DNA of 64,000 bases, taken from contig NZ_CP007130.1 in assembly GCF_000522985.1 (NCBI RefSeq), forward strand, positions 868,001 to 932,000, in the 5' to 3' direction. This DNA comes from Gemmatirosa kalamazoonensis. Lineage in GTDB: Bacteria > Gemmatimonadota > Gemmatimonadetes > Gemmatimonadales > Gemmatimonadaceae. The translations under genes and the position numbers were made by a program. Under the pieces are notes generated by a model. The model was not told where the DNA came from and did not search any database. It saw nothing but the letters and a program-made list of their open reading frames with translations. Below are positions 4,626 through 53,758 of this stretch, one piece after another; the stretch's first letter is position 1; each line of letters begins with the position of its first letter.

Positions 4626-7600
4626 ATGGTACGCCCTCGATGCAAGATCTCCCTCCTCGTCGGCGGCTTGCTGGTAGCCGTACGACTCGGCGCACAGGCG
4701 CCGACCGGCACCGTCAGCGGACGCGTCATCGACTCGACGTCGCGACTTCCCGTGACGAACGCGAACGTCGTCATCGAGGGCTCGCAGCGCGGCACCGTGA
4801 CGCGCGCCGACGGCGCGTACGTGATCGCCGGCGTGCCCGCGGGACCGCAGCGCGTGCGCGTCAGTCGCATCGGCTACGCCGCGCAGACGCGTGACGTGAC
4901 CGTGACGGCGGGCGGCACCGTCGAGGCGCAGTTCGCGATCGCGTCCGCGGCGACGGCGCTCACCGAGGTGGTCGTCGTCGGCTACGGCACGCAGCGGCGC
5001 GAGGCCATCACCGGCTCGGTCGCGACGGTGAACGCCGACGACGCGAAGGTCGGGCGCATCACCGCACCCACCGAGCTGCTGCAGGGCCGCGTCGCCGGCG
5101 TGACGATGATCCAGAACAACGGGTCGCCCGGCGCCGGCGTGCAGGTGCGCATCCGCGGCGGCACGTCGATCAGCGCGAGCAACGAGCCACTGTACGTGAT
5201 CGACGGCGTGCCGCTCAACAACACCGCGATCGAGCCGACGTCGCTCGGCTCCGGCGACAACCGCAACACGTCGCTGCCGCGCAATCCGCTCAGCTCGATC
5301 GATCCGTCGGACATCGAGACGATCACGGTGCTGAAGGACGCCAGCGCGACGGCGATCTACGGGTCGCGCGGCGCGAACGGCGTGGTGCAGATCACGACGA
5401 AGCACGGGCGCGAGGGGCGCACGGAGCTCACGTACGAGGGCTACTTCTCGTCGTCGAGCCCGTCGAAGACGCTGGACGTGTTGAACGGCGACGAGTACCG
5501 CGCGTTCGTGCAGCAGCAGGTCACGGCGGGCAATCTCGCGGCGAGCCGCCTCACCGGCCTCGGCACGTCGAACACGGACTGGGAGAAGGAGGTCGTGCGC
5601 ACGGCGCACACGCAGAACCACAACCTCGGCTTCTCCGGCGGCGCCGCGAGCACGCAGTACCGCGGCTCGCTGAACTACATGCAGCAGGAAGGCATCGTGC
5701 TGAGCAGCGGGTTGGAGCGCATCTCGGGGCGCATCAACGCCGGGCAGCAGGCGTTCGCCAACCGGCTCCGCATGGGGCTCAACCTGAACGCGTCGCAGGT
5801 GAAGAACGACTACGTGCCCTCGGAGAACACGGCCGGGTTCACGGGCACGACGTTCACGAACATGCTGATCATGAACCCGACGCAGCCGGTGCGCGTGACC
5901 GACCCGTCGACGGGCGTGTCGCGGTACTACGAGATCGGCACGGGCGCGGTCACGATCCGCAACCCGGTGGCGATCACCGACCAGGTGAAGGACGACGGCG
6001 TGTCGCGCCGCATCCTCGGCAACTTCACCGCCGACTACGACCTGTTCTCGTCGCTCACCGCGCAGCTCAACGTCGGCACCGACCGCTCGAACGGCACGCG
6101 CTCGGCCTACTATCCGCGCATCAGCCCGTTGGGCGCGTCGACGAACGGCGACGCGCTGTACGGCGAGCTGGCGAACACGACGAACACGCTGCAGACGTAC
6201 CTCACGTACCGCGCGAGCCCGGGGCCGCACTCGCTCGAGCTGCTCGGCGGCTACGAGTTCAACAACTACTCCACGGTGAGCGAGAACTCCGAGGCGCAGG
6301 GGTTCATCACCGACGCGTTCGCCTACTACAATCTCGGCGCCGGCGCGACGCTGCAGCAGGGCTTCGTCACGTCTGGCCGCACCGACAGCCGGCTGGTGTC
6401 GTTCTTCGGTCGCGCGAACTACAGCCTGAAGGACCGCTACTTCCTCACCGGCGTCGTGCGGCGCGACGGCTCGTCGCGGTTCGGCGCGGGGAACAAGTGG
6501 GCGGTCTTTCCGGCCGTGTCGGGGTCGTGGCTGATGAGCGCCGAGCCGTTCATGAAGGGGCTGTTGGGCAGCGTCGTCTCCGAGCTGCGGCTCAAGGCTG
6601 GCTATGGATTGAACGGCAGCCAGGAGATCAGCCCATACTCGTCGCTGCTCACGCTTGCCACCGGCCCCAAAGCGAGCTTCGGGGAGACGACCGTGCTCGG
6701 CGTGTCGCCGAACCGGAACCCGAATCCCGATCTCAAGTGGGAGCAGACGGCGCAGACCAACGTCGGTCTCGACTTCGCGATCCTCGACGGCCGCTTCAGC
6801 GGCACCGTGGAGTACTATCTGAAGAACACGCGCGACCTGCTGCTCACCATCAACGTGCCGCAGCCGGCGGTCACCGACACGGTGCTGGCGAACGTCGGTG
6901 CGGTGCGCAACAAGGGGCTGGAGTTCACGCTCGACGCGCGCACGATCTCGCGTCCGCGGCTCGACCTCACGCTCGGCGTCCTCGGCTCGGTGGAGCGCAA
7001 CCGGGTGGTGAGCCTCGGCAAGACGGCGTTCATCACGTCGGGCAACGTGAGCGGGCAGGGGCAGACGGGGCAGGTCTCGCAGCGCATCATGCCCGGGTTC
7101 CCGTTAGGCACGTTCTACGGCCCGGAGTACGTGGGCGTGGACGCGAACGGCCGGCAGCTGTTCAACAAGTACAAGGTGACGAAGAACGCGGCCGGCGTGA
7201 TCACGAGCCGCGAGCTGACGGCCCAGACGACGACGCCGACGGCCGACGACTACAACGTGCTGGGCAACGCGAACCCGAAGTTCTCGCTCGGCGGACATGG
7301 GCAGCTCCGCGCCGGGCAGCTCGACGCGAGCTTCCTCGTGCGCGGCGTGTTCGGGCAGAAGGTGCTGAACAACACCGCGCTCGTCTACTCGACGAAGGGG
7401 AACGCGCTCCAGGACAAGAACTTCCTGAAGTCGGCGCTGAACGACCCGATCGGCATCAAGGAGCCGGCGATCTTCTCCTCGCGGTGGATCGAGGACGGCT
7501 CGTTCGTGCGGCTGCAGAACGTCACGGTGGGCTATACCGTCCGGCTGCCGAGCGGCACGCACGCGCGCCAGGCCCGCGTGTACGTGACGGGCGACAACCT

Positions 7601-7746: not shown

Positions 7747-9276
7747 ATGCGTCATACCAAGATCCTGACGTCGCTCTTCGTGGCGCTCGTCGTCGTGCCG
7801 CAGGGGTGCACGAACCTCTCCGAAGATCCGTACAGCGTCATCACGCCGGAGAAGTTCTACCAGAACGACGACGAGGTACGCTCCGGCCTCGCCGCCGTGT
7901 ACAGCCAGCTCAACACGGTGTCGACGGGGAACCAGCAGTACCTGAACGAGATCACGTCCGACGAGGGCGTGATCCCCACGCGCGGCCAGGACTGGTTCGA
8001 CAACGGCGTGCACCTGGAGGCCCAGCGGCACACGTGGCAGGCGGGGAGCCCGCTCGCGCTGAACCAGATCAACAGCACGTGGGTGCAGTCGTTCACCGGC
8101 GTCGCGCGTGCCAACGTGCTGCTCGCGGCCGTGGAGAACCTGCCGATCGCGAACAAGGCGCGCACGATCGCGGAGACGCGCGTGCTGCGCGCGTACTTCT
8201 ACTACCATCTCATGGATCTGTTCGGCGGCGTGCCGCTCGTCACGACCACCGAGGTCGAGCCGCACGAGCGCACGACGCGCGCGGAGACGTTCGCGTTCAT
8301 CGAGAAGGAGCTGACGGAGGCGCGCAAGGATCTGCCGGTCGCGTGGCCGTCGTCGGACTACGGCCGCGCGACGCAGGGGTGGGTGGACGCGATGCTCGCG
8401 CACATGTACCTGAACGCCGAGGTGTACACGGGCACCGTGACGGCGGGCGGGCTGCAGAAGGGCTCCGCGCAGTGGCAGAAGGCGATCGACGCCGCCGACC
8501 GCGTGATCGCCGGTCCGTACAAGCTCACCGCCGACCAGGCGGCGAACTTCCGCGCCGACAACAACACGTCGACCGAGATCGTGATGGTCTCCGCGCGGCG
8601 GCCGGAGAGTGGGCTGAACGGCTACGGGACGATCAGCAACAACCTGCACTACAACCAGTTCTCTCCCGCGCCCAACAACGGCCGCGCCGTGGAGCCGCCG
8701 ACGTACCGGAAATTCGACCCGGACGACAAGCGCCGCGCCGCGATCCTGGAGGGGCCGCAGTTCCACCTCGTGACCGGCGCGGCGATCAACGACCGCTCGG
8801 GCGCGCGTCTCGTCTACACGGTCGACATCCCCGACATCACGCAGGCGACCGAGGGGAACGGCGTGCGCATCTACAAGTGGCCGTACGACCCCGCGCGCGT
8901 GACGAACCTGCACGGCAACGACTTCGCGATCTTCCGCCTCGCCGAGATCCTGCTCATCAAGGCGGAGGCGCTGAACGAGCTCGGTCGCACGTCGGAGGCG
9001 ATCCCGCTCGTGAACCAGATCCGCGCCCGCGCGTTCACCCCGCCGAAGCCGATCGCATCGAACCTGTCGCAGGCGCAGCTGCGCACGGCGATCTTCGACG
9101 AGCGGCAGATCGAGCTGCTCGAGGAAGGGCGGCGGCGCACGGACCAGATCCGGCAGGGCACCTACCTGCTCGCGAGCTGGAACCACGAGGCCGACGCGCC
9201 GTTCCGCGTGCTGATGCCGATCCCGCAGACGCAGATGGACGCGAACCCGCTGCTCGTGCAGAACCCCGGGTACTGA
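7747..9276 (+). CDS. SusD/RagB-family nutrient-binding outer-membrane lipoprotein
   Basis: 509 residues with a lipoprotein signal (Cys21 in VPQGC) followed by the family opening DPYSVITPEKFYQND and helical TPR-like repeats; the C-terminal RagB/SusD region has FAIFRLAEILLIKAEALNE, NQIRARA and a FDERQIELLEEG-type block. SusD proteins sit as a lid on the SusC barrel and bind glycan at the cell surface. It lies 13 bp after SusC with its own ribosome site (GGAGGGCGA), which indicates one operon. It ends with the usual aromatic PGY. The cargo is not readable from sequence; neighbouring GH13 enzymes suggest alpha-glucan. Confidence 0.95.
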   Translation: MRHTKILTSLFVALVVVPQGCTNLSEDPYSVITPEKFYQNDDEVRSGLAAVYSQLNTVSTGNQQYLNEITSDEGVIPTRGQDWFDNGVHLEAQRHTWQAGSPLALNQINSTWVQSFTGVARANVLLAAVENLPIANKARTIAETRVLRAYFYYHLMDLFGGVPLVTTTEVEPHERTTRAETFAFIEKELTEARKDLPVAWPSSDYGRATQGWVDAMLAHMYLNAEVYTGTVTAGGLQKGSAQWQKAIDAADRVIAGPYKLTADQAANFRADNNTSTEIVMVSARRPESGLNGYGTISNNLHYNQFSPAPNNGRAVEPPTYRKFDPDDKRRAAILEGPQFHLVTGAAINDRSGARLVYTVDIPDITQATEGNGVRIYKWPYDPARVTNLHGNDFAIFRLAEILLIKAEALNELGRTSEAIPLVNQIRARAFTPPKPIASNLSQAQLRTAIFDERQIELLEEGRRRTDQIRQGTYLLASWNHEADAPFRVLMPIPQTQMDANPLLVQNPGY

Positions 9277-9322: not shown

Positions 9323-9513
9323 TTGAACCGCAGAGGGCCGCAGAGGGCCGCAGAGGACTGCCCTTTTCTTGAGTTGAACCACAGAGGACACGGAGGACAC
9401 GGAGAAAACCAACTTCTTCTCTTGAAAGGTTCTCCTCTGTGTCCTCTGTGTCCTCTGTGGTTACAAGAAAGGAATGGTGTCCTCTGCGGCCCTCTGCGGC
9501 CTCTGCGGTTCAA
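9323..9513. repeat. Nested palindrome R1 (CCGCAGAGG outer arms, ACAGAGGACACGGAGG inner arms)
   Basis: The outer left arm 9323-9357 pairs with 9480-9513; both are runs of the short unit CCGCAGAGG/GC. Inside the loop a second, differently worded palindrome pairs 9377-9404 with 9432-9462 (CACAGAGGACACGGAGG-type units). The element fills the gap between SusD and the amylase and ends about 35 bp before the amylase start. It contains no gene and could form a very stable RNA hairpin between the two coding regions. Confidence 0.92.
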
Positions 9514-14108: not shown

Positions 14109-14148
14109 GGCGCGCGCGGTGCCTGGACTCCACGTACGAGTGCTCGAA

Positions 14149-14242
14149 GGACTGAAGAAGGACTGAAGGAGGACTGAAGAAGGACCAACAACACTTTGTT
14201 GGTATTTCCTTCTTCAGTCCTCCTTCAGTCCTTCTTCAGTCC
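14149..14242. terminator. 42-bp-stem palindrome of GACTGAAGAAG units between convergent genes
   Basis: The left arm 14150-14184 is the exact reverse complement of 14207-14241 (35 bp); after a 4-nt bulge the stem continues as CCAACAA/TTGTTGG around a tiny loop. Each arm is three 11-bp direct repeats (GACTGAAGAAG, with a GGAG variant). Weaker flanking arms (CTCCACGTACG / CGTACGTGGAG) extend it. It sits between the converging MFS and SGNH genes, where it could end both transcripts. The sequence differs from the CCGCAGAGG family, but the architecture is the same. Confidence 0.85.
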
Positions 14243-14294
14243 CACAAGAACACGTACGTGGAGCCCAGGTCGGGCCGCCGAGGTGCGGACCTCG

Positions 14295-22726: not shown

Positions 22727-22877
22727 CACGCGGAGGCGCGGAGAACGCGGAGACATTGAACCGCAGAGGACGCAGAGGGCCGCAGAGGAGAACCCATTGC
22801 CACTGGTTTCCTCTGCGGCCCTCTGCGTCCTCTGCGGTTCAATTCAACAGAGGCCTTTCTCCGCGTGCTCCGCGTGC
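22727..22877. repeat. Nested palindrome R2 (ACGCGGAG outer, CCGCAGAGG inner)
   Basis: The inner arms 22755-22794 and 22805-22843 are the CCGCAGAGGACGCAGAGGGC words of the family. They are enclosed by a different outer palindrome, 22727-22753 with 22859-22877 (CACGCGGAG / CTCCGCGTG units). Here the CCGCAGAGG element is the inner one, whereas at 9323 it is the outer one. It lies between convergent genes (small secreted protein and GH13 enzyme), where it may act as a two-way terminator. Confidence 0.9.
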
Positions 22878-25839: not shown

Positions 25840-26040
25840 AACCGCAGAGGACGCAGAGGGCCGCAGAGAACACCGATGGGGCGAGGCAGCAGGCGAGTAC
25901 TCGGGGGATCCAAGTGCGATTGAAACGATCTCGAGATCCTTTTCATCGCCGTTGGATCCCCAGGGTACTCGCCCAGCACCTCGAAGCTGTGGTTCGATCA
26001 AAGAGGACAGTCCTCTGCGGCCCTCTGCTCGCGGTTCAAT
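25840..26040. repeat. Composite palindrome R3 (CCGCAGAGG arms around a GGCGAGTAC/GGATCC palindrome)
   Basis: The outer arms start ACCGCAGAGGACGCAGAGG (25841-) and end in the matching CCTCTGCGGCC...GCGGTTCAAT (~26011-26040). The loop carries a second palindrome (GGCGAGTAC...GGGGATCCAA against TTGGATCCCC...GTACTCGCC) and a short GATCTCGAGATC core. Nearly the same ~200-bp composite occurs at 34054-34254. It fills the gap between the ATPase and permease genes of the importer operon and contains no gene. Confidence 0.9.
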
Positions 26041-26874: not shown

Positions 26875-26895
26875 CACGGGTTGCGGTGTGGGTCG

Positions 26896-26963
26896 GCCGC
26901 AGATTACGCCGATTACGCAGAAGACACAGCGAGCGAGTCTGCGTAACCTGCGTGATCTGCGGC
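26896..26963. repeat. Palindrome of the CGTAATCTGCG family between permease genes
   Basis: Arms 26896-26921 and 26938-26963 pair (GCCGCAGATTACGCCGATTACG against the matching CGTGATCTGCGGC side with a few mismatches). Each arm is a pair of short direct repeats (GATTACGC). It fills the 93-bp gap between MalF- and MalG-type genes, so a stable hairpin would sit in the operon mRNA and could set relative expression. Confidence 0.85.
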
Positions 26964-26967
26964 TCAT

Positions 26968-27843
26968 TCATGAGCGATCCGCGCCGAGCACGCGCCGCTG
27001 GATCGCGACGACGATCCCGATCATCGCCGCGAGCGCGACGCCGATCGTCGCCGCGTAGCCCATCTTCTGGTACGAGAACGCGTTCGTGTAGAGGTACAGC
27101 ACGATGGAGTACGTGCGCCGCAGCGGCCCGCCGCCGGTCATCACGTACGGCTCGATGAAGAGCTGGAAGCCGTTGATCGTCGACAGCGTGACGACGAGCA
27201 GCGTCTGCGGAAGGAGCAGCGGGAGCGTCAGGTAGCGGAACCGCTGCCACGCCGTCGCGCCGTCGAGCGCGATCGCCTCCTGACAGCTCCGCGGCACGTA
27301 CTGCAGGCCCGCGAGATAGATGATGACGTAGAACCCGACGTTCTTCCACGTCACCATCGCGGCGATCGCCGGCATCGCCGTGGCGGGGCTCGTGAGCCAC
27401 GGCACCGGGGCGAGTCCCACGCGCGCCAGCAGCTCGTTGATGAGCCCCACGTCGGTCGCGTACAGCGCGTTCCACAGGATCGCGACGACCGCGCCCGAGA
27501 TGACGACCGGGAGGAAGAACGCCGCGCGCCAGAACGCGCGCAGTGCGAGCGGGCGGTCGAGCGCCAGCGCGAGGCCGAGCGCGACGACGATCTGCAGCGG
27601 CACGTGGATCGCCAGGAACACGAACGTGTTGCCCACCGCCTGCCAGAAGCGCCCGTCGGTCGCCAGGTGCCGCACGTTGTCGAGCCCCGCGAACGTCGGC
27701 GGCGTGACGAGATCCCAGCGCAGCAGCACGAGCGCCAGCGCGAACACCACCGGGTACGCCGCGAACGTCAGCAGGAACAGCGCGTACGGCGCCGTGAGCA
27801 GCCACCCCGCGCGCGACTCGGCACCGGCTCGCTCAACGCGCAC
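26968..27843 (-). CDS. Sugar ABC transporter permease, MalF family
   Basis: 291 residues from a GTG start at 27843, overlapping the end of the binding-protein gene by 11 bp. Six helices; typical lead GWLLTAPYALFLLTFAAYPV and EAA loop QEAIALDGATAWQRFRYLTLP. It lacks the large periplasmic P2 loop of E. coli MalF, like most UgpA/LacF-type proteins. It forms the heteromeric channel with the MalG-type protein encoded next. The overlap indicates translational coupling to the binding protein. Confidence 0.92.
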   Translation of the reverse strand: MRVERAGAESRAGWLLTAPYALFLLTFAAYPVVFALALVLLRWDLVTPPTFAGLDNVRHLATDGRFWQAVGNTFVFLAIHVPLQIVVALGLALALDRPLALRAFWRAAFFLPVVISGAVVAILWNALYATDVGLINELLARVGLAPVPWLTSPATAMPAIAAMVTWKNVGFYVIIYLAGLQYVPRSCQEAIALDGATAWQRFRYLTLPLLLPQTLLVVTLSTINGFQLFIEPYVMTGGGPLRRTYSIVLYLYTNAFSYQKMGYAATIGVALAAMIGIVVAIQRRVLGADRS

Positions 27844-30460
27844 GGAGGATCCCTCGCGTCTCGCGCGCGGCACGCGCGAGCGCGTCGCGCACGGGCACCG
27901 TGCCATAGATCGACGCGGCCTCGTACGCCTCGGACAGCACGTCGAAGATCTCCACCACGTCGGGGTCGACGTCGAGGTCGCGCGCGCGCTCCACGTAGCG
28001 CGCGTACGTGGGCAGCGTGGGCCAGCGCGCGAGCGCCCGCGCGAACCGCGCATCGTCGGCGAGCGCGCGTCGGTAGGGGAGCTGGCTCGCCTCCTCGACC
28101 AGCATGCGGTCCGCCTCGGGCGACGTGAGGAACGCGACGAAGCGCGCCGCGGCCTCCGGGTGCCGCGTGGTCGCGAACACGGCGATGCTGCGCAGGTCGG
28201 CGAACGCGTAGCGCTGCTCGGGCGGCGCGCCGTCGGCCGCCGGGATCGGCACGGCGCCGTAGCGCATGCCGGGCGTCTTGATCTCCTCCAGCTCGCGCAC
28301 GAACCACGGACCGATGATCTTCATCGCCACGGTGCCGTCGGCGAACGGGTCGCGCCCCTGCGAGAAGTTCGCGCGCGGCAGCAGCCCCTCGGCGAACCCG
28401 CGACGCAGCAGCTCGAGCGCCGACGCCGCGGCGGCGTTGTCGAACAGCACCGAGTCGCCGCGCACGAGCGTGCGGCCGCCGGAGCTCGCGAGGTACAGCG
28501 GGTAGAAGTCGTAGAACCGCTCGTACCACGTCGTCTTCAGCGGCGCCCACAGCGCCCAGTGGTCGCGCCGCCCGTCGCCGTCGGCGTCGCGCGCGAGCTT
28601 CCGGAACGCGTCGAGCAGCTCGCTCTGGGTGGTGGGCGGCGACACGCCGGCCCGCGCGAGCAGGTCGACGTTGTACAGCAGCAGCTCGGGGTTCGTCTTC
28701 CACGGGAACGCGTACACGCCGCCGTCGGGGAGCCTGAGCGGCGCGAGCATCGCCGGCGACGTGCGCTCGCGGAGCCGAGCGGCCGTCGCCACGCGATCGT
28801 CGAGCCGCACCACCCCGCCCGCGCGCACGAGCCGCGACAGCAGCGCGGACGACACGTTCGACGACACGTCCGGCGTCGCGCGCGCGACGATGGCGGCGAG
28901 CAGCACCTCCTCGGTGGACCGCCCCGCGGGGAGCGGCTGCACACGCACCTGCACGTCGGGATGCTCGGCGTTCCACCGCGCGACGAGGCGCGTGGCGAGG
29001 CGCGTCTCGGCGGGGTTCGCGGCGGGCCAGTAGGTGAGCGTGATCGGACCACCGTTAGGCGTCTCGTCCACGTGCAGGCCGGACGCGTCGCGGCGCAGCG
29101 TGAGGCGCTCGCCACCGGGACCGACGAACTCGCGGCGGTCGGGCACGACGGCAAGCGACGCGCTGGGCGCGCCGCGGGTGCCATAGCGCGCGTAGGTCGC
29201 GGCGTCGGGATTGGCGGCGACGCGCTGCAGTGCGAGCAGCGCCTCGATCGTGGACTCCGCGCCGGCATCGCGATTCACCGCGCCCGGCCCGTCGACGCCG
29301 TCGAACGTGCGGCCGGTGCGCTCGTCGTACATGCCGACGAGCCACGACGCGGCCAGCCCCGCCTGCACGGCGTAGCGTCGGTCGCCCGTCGCGTCGGCGA
29401 GCGCGAGCCATCCCTCCACCACCGGACCGACGCCGTACGCGATCTGCGGGTACCAGGTGGCGCCGCCGTCGGGCGCGACCGTGGCGGGGATGCGGCCGGC
29501 GAGGGCGAAGCGTGTCCACAGTGCGTCGGCCTCGCGGCGCGCCGCGGTCGCGAGCTCCGGCCGTCCGAGCGCGACGGCGGCGGTCGCGAGCGCCTCAGTC
29601 GATCGGCTGCCCCACGCGTGCCATGCGGCGGCCGGTGCATCGGTGCGCGCGCCCCACGGCGCGGCGTCCGGTCCGCCGCGCGACAGCGGCACGAGCAGCT
29701 CCGCCGCACGCTCGGCCAGTGCCGCGTGCTCCGGCGACGGCTCCGCGCGCTGCAGCGCCAGCATGCCCAACAGCGCCTCGGACGTGGCGGTGGCCGAGCC
29801 GCCGACGAGCCGGCCGGCGTCGACGTCGCGGCGCGCGCGCGCGACGGTGCGGTCGAGCACCGCGCGCAGATCCGGCGGCAGCGCGGCCGCGCCGAGCACG
29901 CGGTCGGCCTCGCCGAGCGCCCAGAGCGCGCGCGCGCCCCAGAACGACATGCCCTTGCGCCCGCTCGCGACCCGATCGTTAGGCACTCCGCGCCCGTCGA
30001 CGAAGTTCAGGTACTCGCCGTCGCCGCGCTCCATGGCGGCGACGAACGCGAGCAGCCCGAGCGCGTCGTCGCGATCGCGCGCGTCGCCGCTCGCCTCGTA
30101 CGCGCGCAGCAGCGCGACGGCGGCCCGCGCCGCGTCGTCCACGCTCGCGATCCCCTCCGAGCCGTCGCGCTGCGGGGAGCCCGTGGGCCGGTAGTCCGGC
30201 GCCGGCGCGTACAGCGCGACGATCTTCACGCGGTGTCCGTCGACGAAGAGGTCGCGCGTGAGGTGCCGCAGGTGGTCGTAGGTGAGGCCTAACGGCTTCG
30301 ATGCGTGCGGCTCGGGCAGGGGGAGAGGGGCGCGGTGGCAGCTCTGCACGAGCATCGAACCGCAGAGGGCGCGGAGGACGCAGAGGAGAACAACAACACG
30401 AGACGATTGTTGTTGTTCTCCTCTGCGTCCTCTGCGTCCTCTGCGGTTCGATGTCGTCAC
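27833..30460 (-). CDS. Fusion lipoprotein: helical glycosidase-like domain plus ABC sugar-binding protein
   Basis: About 875 residues. Residues ~60-425 are an all-helical (alpha/alpha)-toroid-like domain (SVDDAARAAVALLRAYE, GMSFWGARALWALGEADRVL, ATWYPQIAYGVGPVVEGWLAL), family uncertain. Residues ~450-875 are an extracellular solute-binding protein family 1 domain (LTYWPAANPAETRLATRLV, VYAFPWKTNPELLLYNVDLL, FADGTVAMKIIGPWF). The start most likely is GTG 30460 (or 30463): it overlaps the previous stop by GTGA, and GGGAGG lies 6-9 bases upstream. With this start a 99-bp palindrome (30354-30452) is coding and supplies RRGRRGRRG followed by VVVLLCVLRALCGS and the Cys of VQSC, a plausible lipoprotein signal. 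From the later ATG at 30355 no signal peptide would exist. It should capture an oligosaccharide for the adjacent permeases and perhaps trim it. Confidence 0.85.
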   Translation of the reverse strand: MTTSNRRGRRGRRGEQQQSSRVVVLLCVLRALCGSMLVQSCHRAPLPLPEPHASKPLGLTYDHLRHLTRDLFVDGHRVKIVALYAPAPDYRPTGSPQRDGSEGIASVDDAARAAVALLRAYEASGDARDRDDALGLLAFVAAMERGDGEYLNFVDGRGVPNDRVASGRKGMSFWGARALWALGEADRVLGAAALPPDLRAVLDRTVARARRDVDAGRLVGGSATATSEALLGMLALQRAEPSPEHAALAERAAELLVPLSRGGPDAAPWGARTDAPAAAWHAWGSRSTEALATAAVALGRPELATAARREADALWTRFALAGRIPATVAPDGGATWYPQIAYGVGPVVEGWLALADATGDRRYAVQAGLAASWLVGMYDERTGRTFDGVDGPGAVNRDAGAESTIEALLALQRVAANPDAATYARYGTRGAPSASLAVVPDRREFVGPGGERLTLRRDASGLHVDETPNGGPITLTYWPAANPAETRLATRLVARWNAEHPDVQVRVQPLPAGRSTEEVLLAAIVARATPDVSSNVSSALLSRLVRAGGVVRLDDRVATAARLRERTSPAMLAPLRLPDGGVYAFPWKTNPELLLYNVDLLARAGVSPPTTQSELLDAFRKLARDADGDGRRDHWALWAPLKTTWYERFYDFYPLYLASSGGRTLVRGDSVLFDNAAAASALELLRRGFAEGLLPRANFSQGRDPFADGTVAMKIIGPWFVRELEEIKTPGMRYGAVPIPAADGAPPEQRYAFADLRSIAVFATTRHPEAAARFVAFLTSPEADRMLVEEASQLPYRRALADDARFARALARWPTLPTYARYVERARDLDVDPDVVEIFDVLSEAYEAASIYGTVPVRDALARAARETRGILRAR
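30354..30452. repeat. CCGCAGAGG palindrome R4, inside a coding region
   Basis: Arms 30354-30398 and 30408-30452 pair almost perfectly (ATCGAACCGCAG against CTGCGGTTCGAT at the ends). Length is 99 bp, exactly 33 codons. On the minus strand it is read in frame in the binding-protein gene: the first arm gives repeated Arg-Arg-Gly, the loop Glu-Gln-Gln-Gln-Ser-Ser, and the second arm a Val/Leu/Cys hydrophobic stretch. Confidence 0.9.
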
Positions 30461-31473
30461 CACGGCACGCCTCCCTCGCCCCGCGCGATCGCCACGTCCA
30501 GCGCATCGAGCAGCGCGGCCTTCGACACGCGCGCACCCGCTACCGACACGTCTGCCGCGCCGTAGTACACGAGGTAGTCGGCGCCGCGCTCGACGAGGCC
30601 CTGTGGGAAGACGACGCGCACGCCGGTGCGGAAGTTCGCCATGTCGACCTGCGGGATGGGACCCGGCTCGATCTCGTACGGCGCCTCGGGCGTGAGCGCG
30701 GGTGCGTCGCTCACGTAGCGCACGCGCTCCGGTCGCTCGAGGTCGAGCACGCACCAGCCCATCGAGTAGACGTTCCCCTCGTCGATCGTCGTCGCGCCGT
30801 GGAACGGCAGGAGCCAGCCGAGCCGAGTGCGCACCGGCGGCGCGCCGGCGCCGACTCGGGCGCTGCGCCACGTGCCCGGGCGCGGGCCGAGCACCGTCGG
30901 TCCATCGTTAGGCCACTCGGCCTCGAGCGCATCGGCGCGGGCGAGCACCGCGCGCGGCATCGGCCGGTGCAGGATCGCGTAGCGGCCGTCGATGCGCTCG
31001 GGGAAAACGACGCAGTTCTTGTTCTCCCCGGCGAGGCGCGGCCCGTGGCGCACGTAGCGCTCCGGCGCGAGCAGGTCGTCGGTCGTCGCGAGGCAGACGC
31101 GCGGGCCGTCGGGGGAGTAGCCGGTGTAGGTGATCGCGTAGCGTCCCTCGTCGGCGAGGAACGTGATGCGCGCGTCTTCCACGCCCCACTGCTCGTACGG
31201 CATCTCGCGCGTGAGCACTGGCCGGTCGAGGATCTCGTCGACCGTCTCGCCGTCCGACGAGACCGCGAGCGCGAGCGACGAGCGTTCCGTGTCCGACTCG
31301 AACACCCGCACGAGCAGCACGACGCTCCCGGTGCGATGATCGATCGCCGCGCCGGCATTGAACGCGCCGGCCGCGCGCGCGTACGGGATCCGCTCCGGGC
31401 GCACGATCGGGTTCGTGGGGAAGCGCTGCAGGGCGGGAAGCCGGATCATCCTCTCGTTCTCGTGGCTCGGCAT
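30457..31473 (-). CDS. GH130 beta-mannoside/oligosaccharide phosphorylase (copy A)
   Basis: 338 residues, no signal peptide: a five-bladed propeller with FPTNPIVRPE at the start, GAFNAGAA, GVEDARITFL (general acid Asp region), NKNCVVFPE, RYAILHRPMPRA and a C-terminal VYYGAADVSVAGA. GH130 enzymes split beta-mannosyl linkages with phosphate, giving mannose 1-phosphate. The genomic setting is the ABC importer operon, so it should act in the cytoplasm on imported mannosides. The stop overlaps the GTG of the binding-protein fusion (GTGA). It begins 6 bp after the stop of the second GH130 gene. Confidence 0.9.
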   Translation of the reverse strand: MPSHENERMIRLPALQRFPTNPIVRPERIPYARAAGAFNAGAAIDHRTGSVVLLVRVFESDTERSSLALAVSSDGETVDEILDRPVLTREMPYEQWGVEDARITFLADEGRYAITYTGYSPDGPRVCLATTDDLLAPERYVRHGPRLAGENKNCVVFPERIDGRYAILHRPMPRAVLARADALEAEWPNDGPTVLGPRPGTWRSARVGAGAPPVRTRLGWLLPFHGATTIDEGNVYSMGWCVLDLERPERVRYVSDAPALTPEAPYEIEPGPIPQVDMANFRTGVRVVFPQGLVERGADYLVYYGAADVSVAGARVSKAALLDALDVAIARGEGGVPW

Positions 31474-34053: not shown

Positions 34054-34254
34054 TCGAACCGCAGCGGACGCAGAGGGCCGCAGCGAACATCGATGGGGCG
34101 AGGTGACAGGCGAGTACCCGGGGGATCCAAGTGCGATTGAAAGGATCTCGAGATCCTCTTCATCGCTGGTGGATCCCGAGTCGTACTCGCCCAGCACCTC
34201 GAACCCGTGGTTCGATCAGAGAGGACAGCCCTCTGCTTCGTCTGCGGCTCAATT
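34054..34254. repeat. Composite palindrome R5, near-copy of R3
   Basis: Same order as 25840-26040: AACCGCAGCGGACGCAGAGG arm, ATCGATGGGGCGAGG, the GGCGAGTAC...GGGGATCCAA palindrome with its GATCTCGAGATC core and GTACTCGCC return, then the CTCTGC...TCTGCGGCTCAATT arm. It diverges from R3 at a few dozen positions, including compensating changes. It lies in the 199-bp gap between the converging MFS and M50 genes. Confidence 0.9.
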
Positions 34255-44093: not shown

Positions 44094-44182
44094 TGAACCG
44101 CAGAGGACGCAGAGGGCCGCAGAGGAAACCAACTCGTGTCGTTGGTTCTCCGCTGCGGCCCTCTGCGTCCTCTGCGGTCAAA
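44094..44182. repeat. CCGCAGAGG palindrome R6 between convergent genes
   Basis: TTGAACCGCAGAGGACGCAG at 44094 onward (arm to ~44129) is matched by CTGCGGCCCTCTGCGTCCTC to ~44182 around an AACCAAC...GTTGGTT inner stem. It sits in the 114-bp gap between the broken anti-sigma gene and the convergent phosphoesterase gene; a likely two-way transcription stop. Confidence 0.9.
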
Positions 44183-52094: not shown

Positions 52095-53672
52095 ATGGAA
52101 CCGAACGCCGCCCGTCCCGTCGAGGGCGCCCGCCCCTCGATCTGGCAGGCGACCGCCGACGTCCCGTCGTACCCGAAGCTGAAGGAGGACCTCACCGTCG
52201 ACGTGTGCGTCGTCGGCGCGGGGATCGCCGGCCTCACGACCGCGTACCATCTCGTGCGCGAGGGCAAGTCCGTCGTCGTGCTCGACGACGGCCCGGTCGG
52301 CGGCGGCGAGACGGGGCGCACCACCGCGCACATCGCCACCGCGGTCGACGACTACTATCACGAGATCGCGCGCGTGCACGGCGACGAGACGGCGCGCCGC
52401 GTGGCCGAGAGCTTCCGCGCCGCGCTCGACCGCATCGAGGGCATCGTCCGCGACGAGGCGATCGACTGCGAGTTCACGCGGCTCGACGGGTGGTGGTTCG
52501 CCGGCGACGCGCAGGGGCGCGACGTCCTGGCCACGGAGCACGACGCGGCGCGCGCGGCCGGCGAGGCGGTGGAGCTGGTGGACGACTGGCCGCTCGCGAA
52601 CGTGTTCCCCGATGCGCCGTTCCCGCGCCTCGCGCTGCGCTTCCCGAACCAGGGACAGTTCCACGCGCTTAAGTATCTCGCCGGCCTCGCGCGCGCGATC
52701 GTCGAGCGTGGGGGACGCATCCACTGCGGCGAGCACGTGAACGGCGTCGAGGACGCGAAGGACGGCGCGCGGTGCGCGGTGAAGACGGAGAGCGGCCGCA
52801 CCGTGCACGCGTCCGACGTCGTCGTCGCGACGAACACGCCGGTGAACGACTGGGTGAAGATGCACACGAAGCAGGCGCCGTATCGCACCTACGTCGTCGG
52901 CATGCGCGTGAGCCGCGGCTGGGTGCCGCCCGGTCTGTACTGGGACACGCTCGACCCGTACCACTACGTGCGCCTGGCGAATCCGTTAGGCACCGGCGAC
53001 GAGGACGTGCTCATCGTCGGCGGCGAGGACCACAAGACGGGACAGTCCGAGGCGCCGGAGGAGGAAGCGTTCGGCCGGCTCGAGTCGTGGGCGCGCGCGC
53101 GCTTCCCGGTCGGCGAGACGCTGTATCGCTGGAGCGGCCAGGTCATGGAGCCGGTCGACTACCTCGGCTTCATCGGCCGCAATCCGGGGAGCCGGCGTCT
53201 CTGGATCGCCACTGGCGACTCGGGCAACGGCATGAGCCACGGCACCATCGCCGGGATGCTGCTCGCCGATCTCATCGTCGGCCGCGAGTCGCCGTGGGCA
53301 CCGGTGTACGACCCGTCGCGCGTGACGCTGAAGGCGATGCCCGTCGCCGAGTTCCTGAAGGAGAACCTCAACGTCGCCGCGCAGTACGTCGACTACGTAA
53401 CGCCCGGCGAGGTGCGCGACGTCGCGGAGATTCCCGCCGGCGAGGGACGCCTCGTCCGCCGCGGGACGAAGAAGCTCGCCGTCTACAAGCGCGACGACGG
53501 CTCGCTCGACGTGCGCTCCGCCGTGTGCACGCACCTGTACTGCATCGTCGCCTGGAACTCGGCCGAGAAGACGTGGGACTGCCCGTGCCACGGCTCGCGC
53601 TTCGCGCACGACGGCACGGTGATCAACGGGCCCGCCGCGTCGCCGCTCGAGGAGGCCGAACTGGGAGAGTGA
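52095..53672 (+). CDS. FAD-dependent oxidoreductase with C-terminal Rieske domain
   Basis: 525 residues. N-terminal FAD site CVVGAGIAGLTTAYHL and DGPVGGGETGRTTAHIA belong to the DAO family; FATGDSG-like ATGDSGNGMSHGTIAGM closes the FAD site. C-terminal ~430-525 is a Rieske [2Fe-2S] domain with CTHLYCIVAWN and CPCHGSRFAHDG (Cys-x-His ... Cys-x-x-His). The fusion is known from bacterial YhfW-type oxidoreductases; the substrate is unknown. Cytoplasmic (no signal). Its stop codon lies in the left arm of a GAGGGCAG palindrome shared with the converging hydrolase gene. Confidence 0.93.
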   Translation: MEPNAARPVEGARPSIWQATADVPSYPKLKEDLTVDVCVVGAGIAGLTTAYHLVREGKSVVVLDDGPVGGGETGRTTAHIATAVDDYYHEIARVHGDETARRVAESFRAALDRIEGIVRDEAIDCEFTRLDGWWFAGDAQGRDVLATEHDAARAAGEAVELVDDWPLANVFPDAPFPRLALRFPNQGQFHALKYLAGLARAIVERGGRIHCGEHVNGVEDAKDGARCAVKTESGRTVHASDVVVATNTPVNDWVKMHTKQAPYRTYVVGMRVSRGWVPPGLYWDTLDPYHYVRLANPLGTGDEDVLIVGGEDHKTGQSEAPEEEAFGRLESWARARFPVGETLYRWSGQVMEPVDYLGFIGRNPGSRRLWIATGDSGNGMSHGTIAGMLLADLIVGRESPWAPVYDPSRVTLKAMPVAEFLKENLNVAAQYVDYVTPGEVRDVAEIPAGEGRLVRRGTKKLAVYKRDDGSLDVRSAVCTHLYCIVAWNSAEKTWDCPCHGSRFAHDGTVINGPAASPLEEAELGE

Positions 53673-53758
53673 GGGCAGGAGGGCAGGAGGGCAGGAGGGC
53701 AGGACAGTCGTTCGGCTCTCGTGCCCTCCTCCCCTCCTGCCCTCCTGCCCTGTCTCTC
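53664..53758. terminator. Palindrome of GAGGGCAG units between convergent genes
   Basis: About four direct copies of GGGCAGGA in the left arm (~53671-53706) pair with GCCCTCCTCCCCTCCTGCCC units in the right arm (~53722-53757), with AGAG/CTCT ends. It overlaps the stop region of both flanking genes. Same design as the other convergent-gap hairpins here, with a different repeat word (8-bp period). Confidence 0.85.

Follow-up and report, generated by a model that had tools for sequence, protein, structure and literature searches.

A dispersed palindromic repeat has probably replaced the core of a predicted lipoprotein signal, and of several other predicted export signals, in Gemmatirosa kalamazoonensis

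The 64,000-nucleotide stretch analysed here (contig NZ_CP007130.1 of Gemmatirosa kalamazoonensis, positions 868,001 to 932,000, called the window) contains a gene for a binding-protein fusion (27833-30463, minus strand, 876 codons) whose frame, just behind its start codons, runs through a 99-bp palindromic element (30354-30452). The sequences give good reason to believe that this element, which belongs to a family of repeats dispersed in the genome, replaced the core of the gene's signal peptide and left a protein that can still be exported and lipidated. Comparison with orthologs shows the replacement of predicted signals in this gene and in genes for an OpuAC binding protein, a GDPD-like protein and proteins of the beta-lactamase family and of the VanX type; that the repeat is translated and the resulting proteins are exported and cleaved is what we infer from their sequences. 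All told, about six further genes of this genome appear to have had a predicted export signal replaced, and the recurrence apparently arises because the repeat, in one of its reading frames, encodes a hydrophobic stretch.

The palindromic element and the predicted signal

The element, assigned to neither strand, ends in ATCGAACCGC..GCGGTTCGAT, and its limits were set where the conservation of 125 outer ends of genomic copies stops (ATYGAACCGC..GCGGTTCRAT), which gives 30354-30452 or 33 codons. An inverted-repeat search found two 46-nt arms (30353-30398 and 30408-30453), 96% complementary and separated by a 9-nt loop; the whole element is thus an inverted repeat with conserved ends, as expected of the terminal inverted repeats of a miniature inverted-repeat transposable element. 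The predicted RNA fold has an energy of -96.9 kcal/mol (z = -10.8), far beyond chance. No T-run follows the stem of the window copy, and Rfam gave no match at the gathering score, the only hits being microRNA-type hairpin models, every one below its threshold.

Translated on the minus strand, the element reads VVTTSNRRGRRGRRGEQQQSSRVVVLLCVLRALCGSMLVQSC. The first arm in the reading direction (30408-30452) encodes a putative basic n-region, (T)SNRRGRRGRRGEQQQ, and the second (30354-30398) a putative hydrophobic h-region, VVVLLCVLRALCGS, which has R for C and A for V when set against the first arm's complement. The opposite strand reads SNRRGRGGRRGEQQHETIVVVLLCVLCVLCGSM. Because the element is a palindrome, both strands give the same order of a basic and then a hydrophobic segment, and the order alone, once considered as evidence for a signal, was therefore rejected as such. 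End conservation, inverted repeat and translation together bear out the original prediction, made by a model from the letters of the window, that a palindrome of 99 bp or 33 codons is read in frame here.

The frame that opens at GTG 30463 on the minus strand is VVTTSN-RRGRRGRRGEQQQSSR-VVVLLCVLRALCG-SMLVQSC. It has two candidate start codons, GTG at 30461-30463 and GTG at 30458-30460; the first lies 6 nt behind a probable Shine-Dalgarno site, GGGAGG (30470-30475, minus strand), and the second overlaps the TGA stop of the upstream GH130 gene (30457-30459) as GTGA. These features are present in the sequence just as they had been described. The lipobox LVQSC (30338-30352, minus strand) lies outside the repeat; its Cys (codon 30338-30340, alignment column C42) is invariant in the orthologs, and it agrees with a PROSITE-type pattern, with no D, E, R or K in the six residues before (MSGCLA region). 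Scoring relied on the biological hydrophobicity scale and on this lipobox pattern. The predicted signal has a net charge of +6 before the hydrophobic run and a best ten-residue hydrophobic sum of -0.57, which falls in the range of 16 ortholog signals (-2.83 to 1.55).

The original prediction had read the two arms and a following Cys as n-region, h-region and lipobox. The putative n- and h-regions are indeed encoded in the repeat, and LVQS and the Cys are not: with the element reaching only to 30354 and an ancestral Cys, a lipobox derived entirely from the repeat was rejected. As judged by the alignment, the repeat contributes only the putative n- and h-regions, and the Cys with the residues just before it is ancestral.

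Orthologs without the repeat

Orthologs were collected as five full-length genes from a whole-genome search and as 17 loci from a scan of GTDB genomes, the two sets being partly the same; in all, 17 loci have a readable N-terminus and represent 16 distinct N-termini. The palindrome is present in none of the 17 loci, and all 17 have at its place an ordinary signal of the lipoprotein type that shares the frame and runs up to that invariant Cys (examples are MRSRIVCAVLAALLAS-C, MSSRHGLRLLVLIALTTA-C, MIIRVANIVAVLLVGQLIAG-C and MRVLCCAAALSTLA-C); the strict lipobox pattern is found in 13 of the 16 distinct signals. Where the GH130 gene lies directly upstream, 13 of 15 orthologs have an in-frame start codon overlapping its stop, as in the window. 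Start and Cys are thus ancestral, and the stretch between them has been replaced. In the window signal only about 9 residues come from outside the repeat, versus 14-31 residues in the ortholog signals, and nothing left over from the old hydrophobic core can be seen when it is compared with them. In terms of predicted signals, the repeat has replaced the charged and the hydrophobic parts of the ancestral one. The guess that the repeat took the place of the export signal is therefore supported at the sequence level by 17 ortholog loci; the check proposed with it, a comparison with orthologs lacking the repeat, found ordinary signals at the same place, and these stand in the same frame rather than upstream in another one, the arrangement that had been named as contrary evidence.

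Recurrence in other exported proteins

A genome-wide search for the family gave 82 matches from 40 candidates that were scored out of 237, both strands counted, and a two-arm pattern gave 79 matches per strand, overlapping matches inside one element included. About 118 palindrome positions were taken with their flanks, and a codon model served to classify 125 elements. This collection is incomplete and a lower bound: later searches gave further copies, among which no additional clear signal case was found.

In six other genes the palindrome lies between the start and the predicted cleavage site, with the second arm read in the frame that we call LCV. They encode unrelated proteins, all from exported families: two members of the beta-lactamase family (L035 and L036a), an M15 or VanX-type protein (L036b), an OpuAC binding protein (L047), an FG-GAP protein (L048) and a protein that is GDPD-like by eye and has no Pfam match (L083). 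The VanX-type dipeptidase gene with its putative repeat-derived signal occupies positions 5082-6217 of locus L036. Behind the second arm of L035, L036a, L036b, L047, L048 and L083 stand, respectively, VLHA^Q, SLGA^Q, SLGA^Q, SLSA^Q, LFA-C and TFA^Q; ordinary signals of the same genome, too, end in LxA^Q, e.g., ALAARLHA^Q and ALAARLGA^Q. L048, whose only start is a TTG on the repeat's edge, is the least certain case; the starts of the other five overlap or abut the upstream stop. Orthologs of L047, L083, L036a and L036b carry ordinary signals instead; for L048, no ortholog was found at E <= 1e-40 among 99 relatives. Related palindromes in sampled relatives, in genome G387 and in the best phylum-wide matches gave no convincing signal case with a codon model that was trained on the Gemmatirosa genome and transfers imperfectly.

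Reading frame and location of the elements

The first arm can be read as RRG, QRT or AED and the second as LCV, SSA or PLR. In all seven genes lacking the old core, the window gene included, the second arm is in the LCV (LCVLCVLCG) frame; the first arm is read as RRG in four of them and as QRT in three. Four exported proteins that kept a core of their own (L099, L128, L078 and L108) and the pilin-like L126 have the second arm in SSA or PLR, and the four insertions inside genes (L072, L073, L079 and L111) all have it in SSA, which resembles a linker. The split between the seven signal cases and the five core-keeping proteins (7:0 vs 0:5) gives a Fisher p of 0.0013, and that between the signal cases and the internal insertions (7:0 vs 0:4) gives 0.003. 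Strong hydrophobicity (-1 or lower) is reached by 32% of the LCV readings and by none of the SSA or PLR readings. Within the family, element length modulo 3 varies freely. The agreement between frame and context speaks for selection, short of proving it, and selection against frames that break a signal is the cause that we infer for the pattern.

The elements are also far from randomly placed: 55 of 63 clean elements lie at most 75 nt downstream of a gene's stop codon, compared with 4.8% of random windows. When the next gene overlaps that stop, an element in this position strikes the start or signal-peptide region of whichever exported protein is encoded there, and this location explains the recurrence in signals without any special targeting of them. 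Mobilisation by RAYT was considered and rejected, since the genome has no RAYT gene (PF01797, Y1_Tnp, found no match there and did match in control genomes). Direct repeats flanking 45 elements were not in excess (best k = 3, p = 0.07), and no clear target-site duplication was seen.

These results suggest the following scenario. A member of the dispersed family of 73-99 bp palindromes would have landed just behind the GH130 stop, in a place that, because the next gene overlaps this stop, was the signal-peptide region of that gene. The insertion and the loss of the old hydrophobic core would have kept the frame; the first arm would then provide basic residues and the second, read in the L/V/C frame, a new hydrophobic region, which the old Cys and the last residues preceding it would complete to a lipoprotein signal, making export and lipidation possible. 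About six other genes may have gone the same way; in these, a putative signal-peptidase-I or lipobox site follows the arm. More tentatively, the palindrome could be a recurrent donor of signal cores that settles behind stops and works in either orientation, in at least seven unrelated exported proteins encoded in overlapping operons, and gene conversion could then change these related signals together; we consider this broader view somewhat less probable than its opposite.

Several points weigh against the replacement of a working signal. Signals were judged by pattern and hydrophobicity, from the letters alone, and genes were called with a home-made gene finder whose codon model puts the start of the window gene at ATG 30355. 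An Arg interrupts the hydrophobic run eleven residues before the Cys (an Arg stands likewise eleven residues before the Cys of ortholog L004), and by hydrophobicity the window copy ranks last among the seven putative signals derived from the repeat. The hairpin lies at the start codons, where it may hinder translation or lower expression. The orthologs compared are all repeat-free, and the search that gave the LCV cases was aimed in part at LCV itself, which makes the frame test biased as well as small.

Alternative explanations

The alternative that fares best is a variant of signal-core replacement, compatible with it, and we give it slightly better than even chances: repeats would land behind stops everywhere and survive in the next gene's signal only if they are by chance hydrophobic, and the host would have gained nothing. 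The bias towards positions behind stops and the automatic hydrophobicity of one frame suffice for the pattern, and a purging of harmful REP insertions from populations has been assumed elsewhere too (PMC3733652). Nothing contradicts such mere tolerance. A gain is conceivable for L036b, whose domain is, in several relatives, the C-terminal part of a longer protein, behind a beta-lactamase-like domain, and in Gemmatirosa is headed by a predicted signal; this is offset by other relatives, which have a stand-alone gene of this type with its own signal.

Much less probable is that the insertion broke the signal, the gene being on its way to loss and the open frame a recent accident. The interrupting Arg and the low score relative to the other repeat-derived signals fit this view, as do the strong hairpin and the 96% complementarity of the arms, which makes a recent insertion probable. 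The remainder of the gene is nevertheless intact over its 876 codons, with 63-70% identity to orthologs; its frame was kept in spite of the free variation of element length modulo 3, the lipobox pattern is retained and the arrangement recurs in seven genes.

Least of all do we favour an untranslated repeat, in which initiation would occur at ATG 30353-30355, the upstream frame would be open by chance and an MLVQSC protein would stay in the cytoplasm: codon usage prefers this start, a REP survey warns that many repeats at the amino ends of annotated genes may be extragenic (PMC3733652) and the hairpin could impede translation, but in the orthologs the gene begins at the GH130 stop, in this very frame, and requires a signal ahead of the Cys, a start only five codons ahead of a conserved lipobox Cys leaves no room for a signal, GGGAGG precedes the GTG and a pyrimidine-rich sequence the ATG, and six other exported proteins share the layout.

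Gene context and other repeats

The gene with the putative repeat-derived signal (Pfam SBP_bac_1 and PDB profile search) combines an N-terminal domain like PDB 7tem with an ABC (ATP-binding cassette) solute-binding domain. The N-terminal domain (about 29200-30340) has no Pfam match, and its PDB match 7tem is the putative exported protein YPO2471. Upstream lies the GH130 phosphorylase gene (30457-31473, minus strand, Pfam PF04041), whose stop overlaps the next start, and downstream lie two ABC permease genes. Between two permease genes, at 26890-26965, stands a related repeat (CGCAGATCACGCAGGTTACGCAG..CTGCGTAATCGGCGTAATCTGCGG), and here too the frame is open before the permease start. The genome comprises 7.48 Mb in four contigs; that of the window measures 1,040,503 bp and two others 5,311,527 and 1,106,233 bp.

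Other repeats were seen in the window. Two more copies of the palindrome family (22755-22843 and 44097-44178) each lie between the stops of convergent genes, and a variant (9362-9477), with the unit CACAGAGGA in place of CGCAGAGGA, follows the stop of the gene at 7747-9273. At 25892-25973 and 34122-34177 there is a second palindrome family (GGGGATCCAAGTGCGATTGAAA..) whose sequence has no relation to that of the first, and long inverted repeats with GAAGGACT and GGCAGGAGG type units and arms of 63 and 46 nt were found at 14122-14269 and 53665-53758. Outside the window, a family of genome G387 (L207-L219) shares the 9-bp unit and has different ends (TCTCACGCAGAGG..CTCTGCGTGAGA), often with T-rich sequence after them, as in terminators. 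Palindromes are sparse between about 2.6 and 4.2 Mb of contig C2 of genome G000, which may be the strand-biased low-repeat region mentioned in PMC11237797.

Significance and comparison with known systems

What is new is the repeated replacement of predicted signal cores in one genome, seen against orthologs, with a rule of frame and a rule of location. Comparison with repeat-free orthologs illustrates how dispersed non-coding DNA may come to serve several times in the same genome as a required part of proteins. One frame of the repeat can serve as a signal because a signal peptide needs little beyond charge and hydrophobicity, and the origin of new signal peptides can be tested directly on orthologs with and without the repeat, taken in pairs. 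There is also a warning for annotation: gene finders based on codons place the start of such genes behind the repeat, and exported proteins would then be called cytoplasmic.

The genome of G. kalamazoonensis KBS708 has been described as crowded with short repeats, 90 and 150 bp in length (PMC11237797). The 90-bp repeats, 471 of which were counted on the chromosome, are very probably the palindrome family of the window; the passages devoted to them give their size and density, and no coding role. Like the repetitive extragenic palindromic (REP) sequences surveyed in PMC3733652, the Gemmatirosa palindromes lie mainly behind genes, with some inside genes and many at the amino end. REPs of the GTAG and CGTC superfamilies have a stem of 5-13 bp and a GTAG or CGTC tag at one end, whereas the present element has a 46-bp stem, the ends ATYGAACC, a 9-bp internal unit (CGCAGAGGN) and no RAYT gene in its genome; membership in either superfamily was rejected because stem length and ends differ.

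The Rickettsia palindromic elements (RPE; Ogata 2000, reviewed in PMC10969869), with which the element had originally been compared, are inserted in frame in many unrelated genes. An in-frame palindromic insertion in protein genes is common to both, and the comparison stands as an analogy between elements only: an RPE is an extra peptide carried by proteins of many kinds, whereas the Gemmatirosa repeat replaces a defined functional part, mostly in exported proteins and mainly behind stop codons. Another likeness is to YPO1552 of Yersinia, where an ERIC (RU-2) element forms part of a predicted signal peptide (Delihas 2007, PMC2759123): there too a small dispersed repeat is read in frame as part of a signal, and the homologs have unrelated ordinary signals. 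YPO1552 is, in the sections of that paper concerned with it, a single predicted case involving another repeat (168 bp), for which no recurrence and no rule of frame or location is reported, whereas in Gemmatirosa the arrangement appears in seven genes of one genome and is accompanied by a comparison with orthologs.

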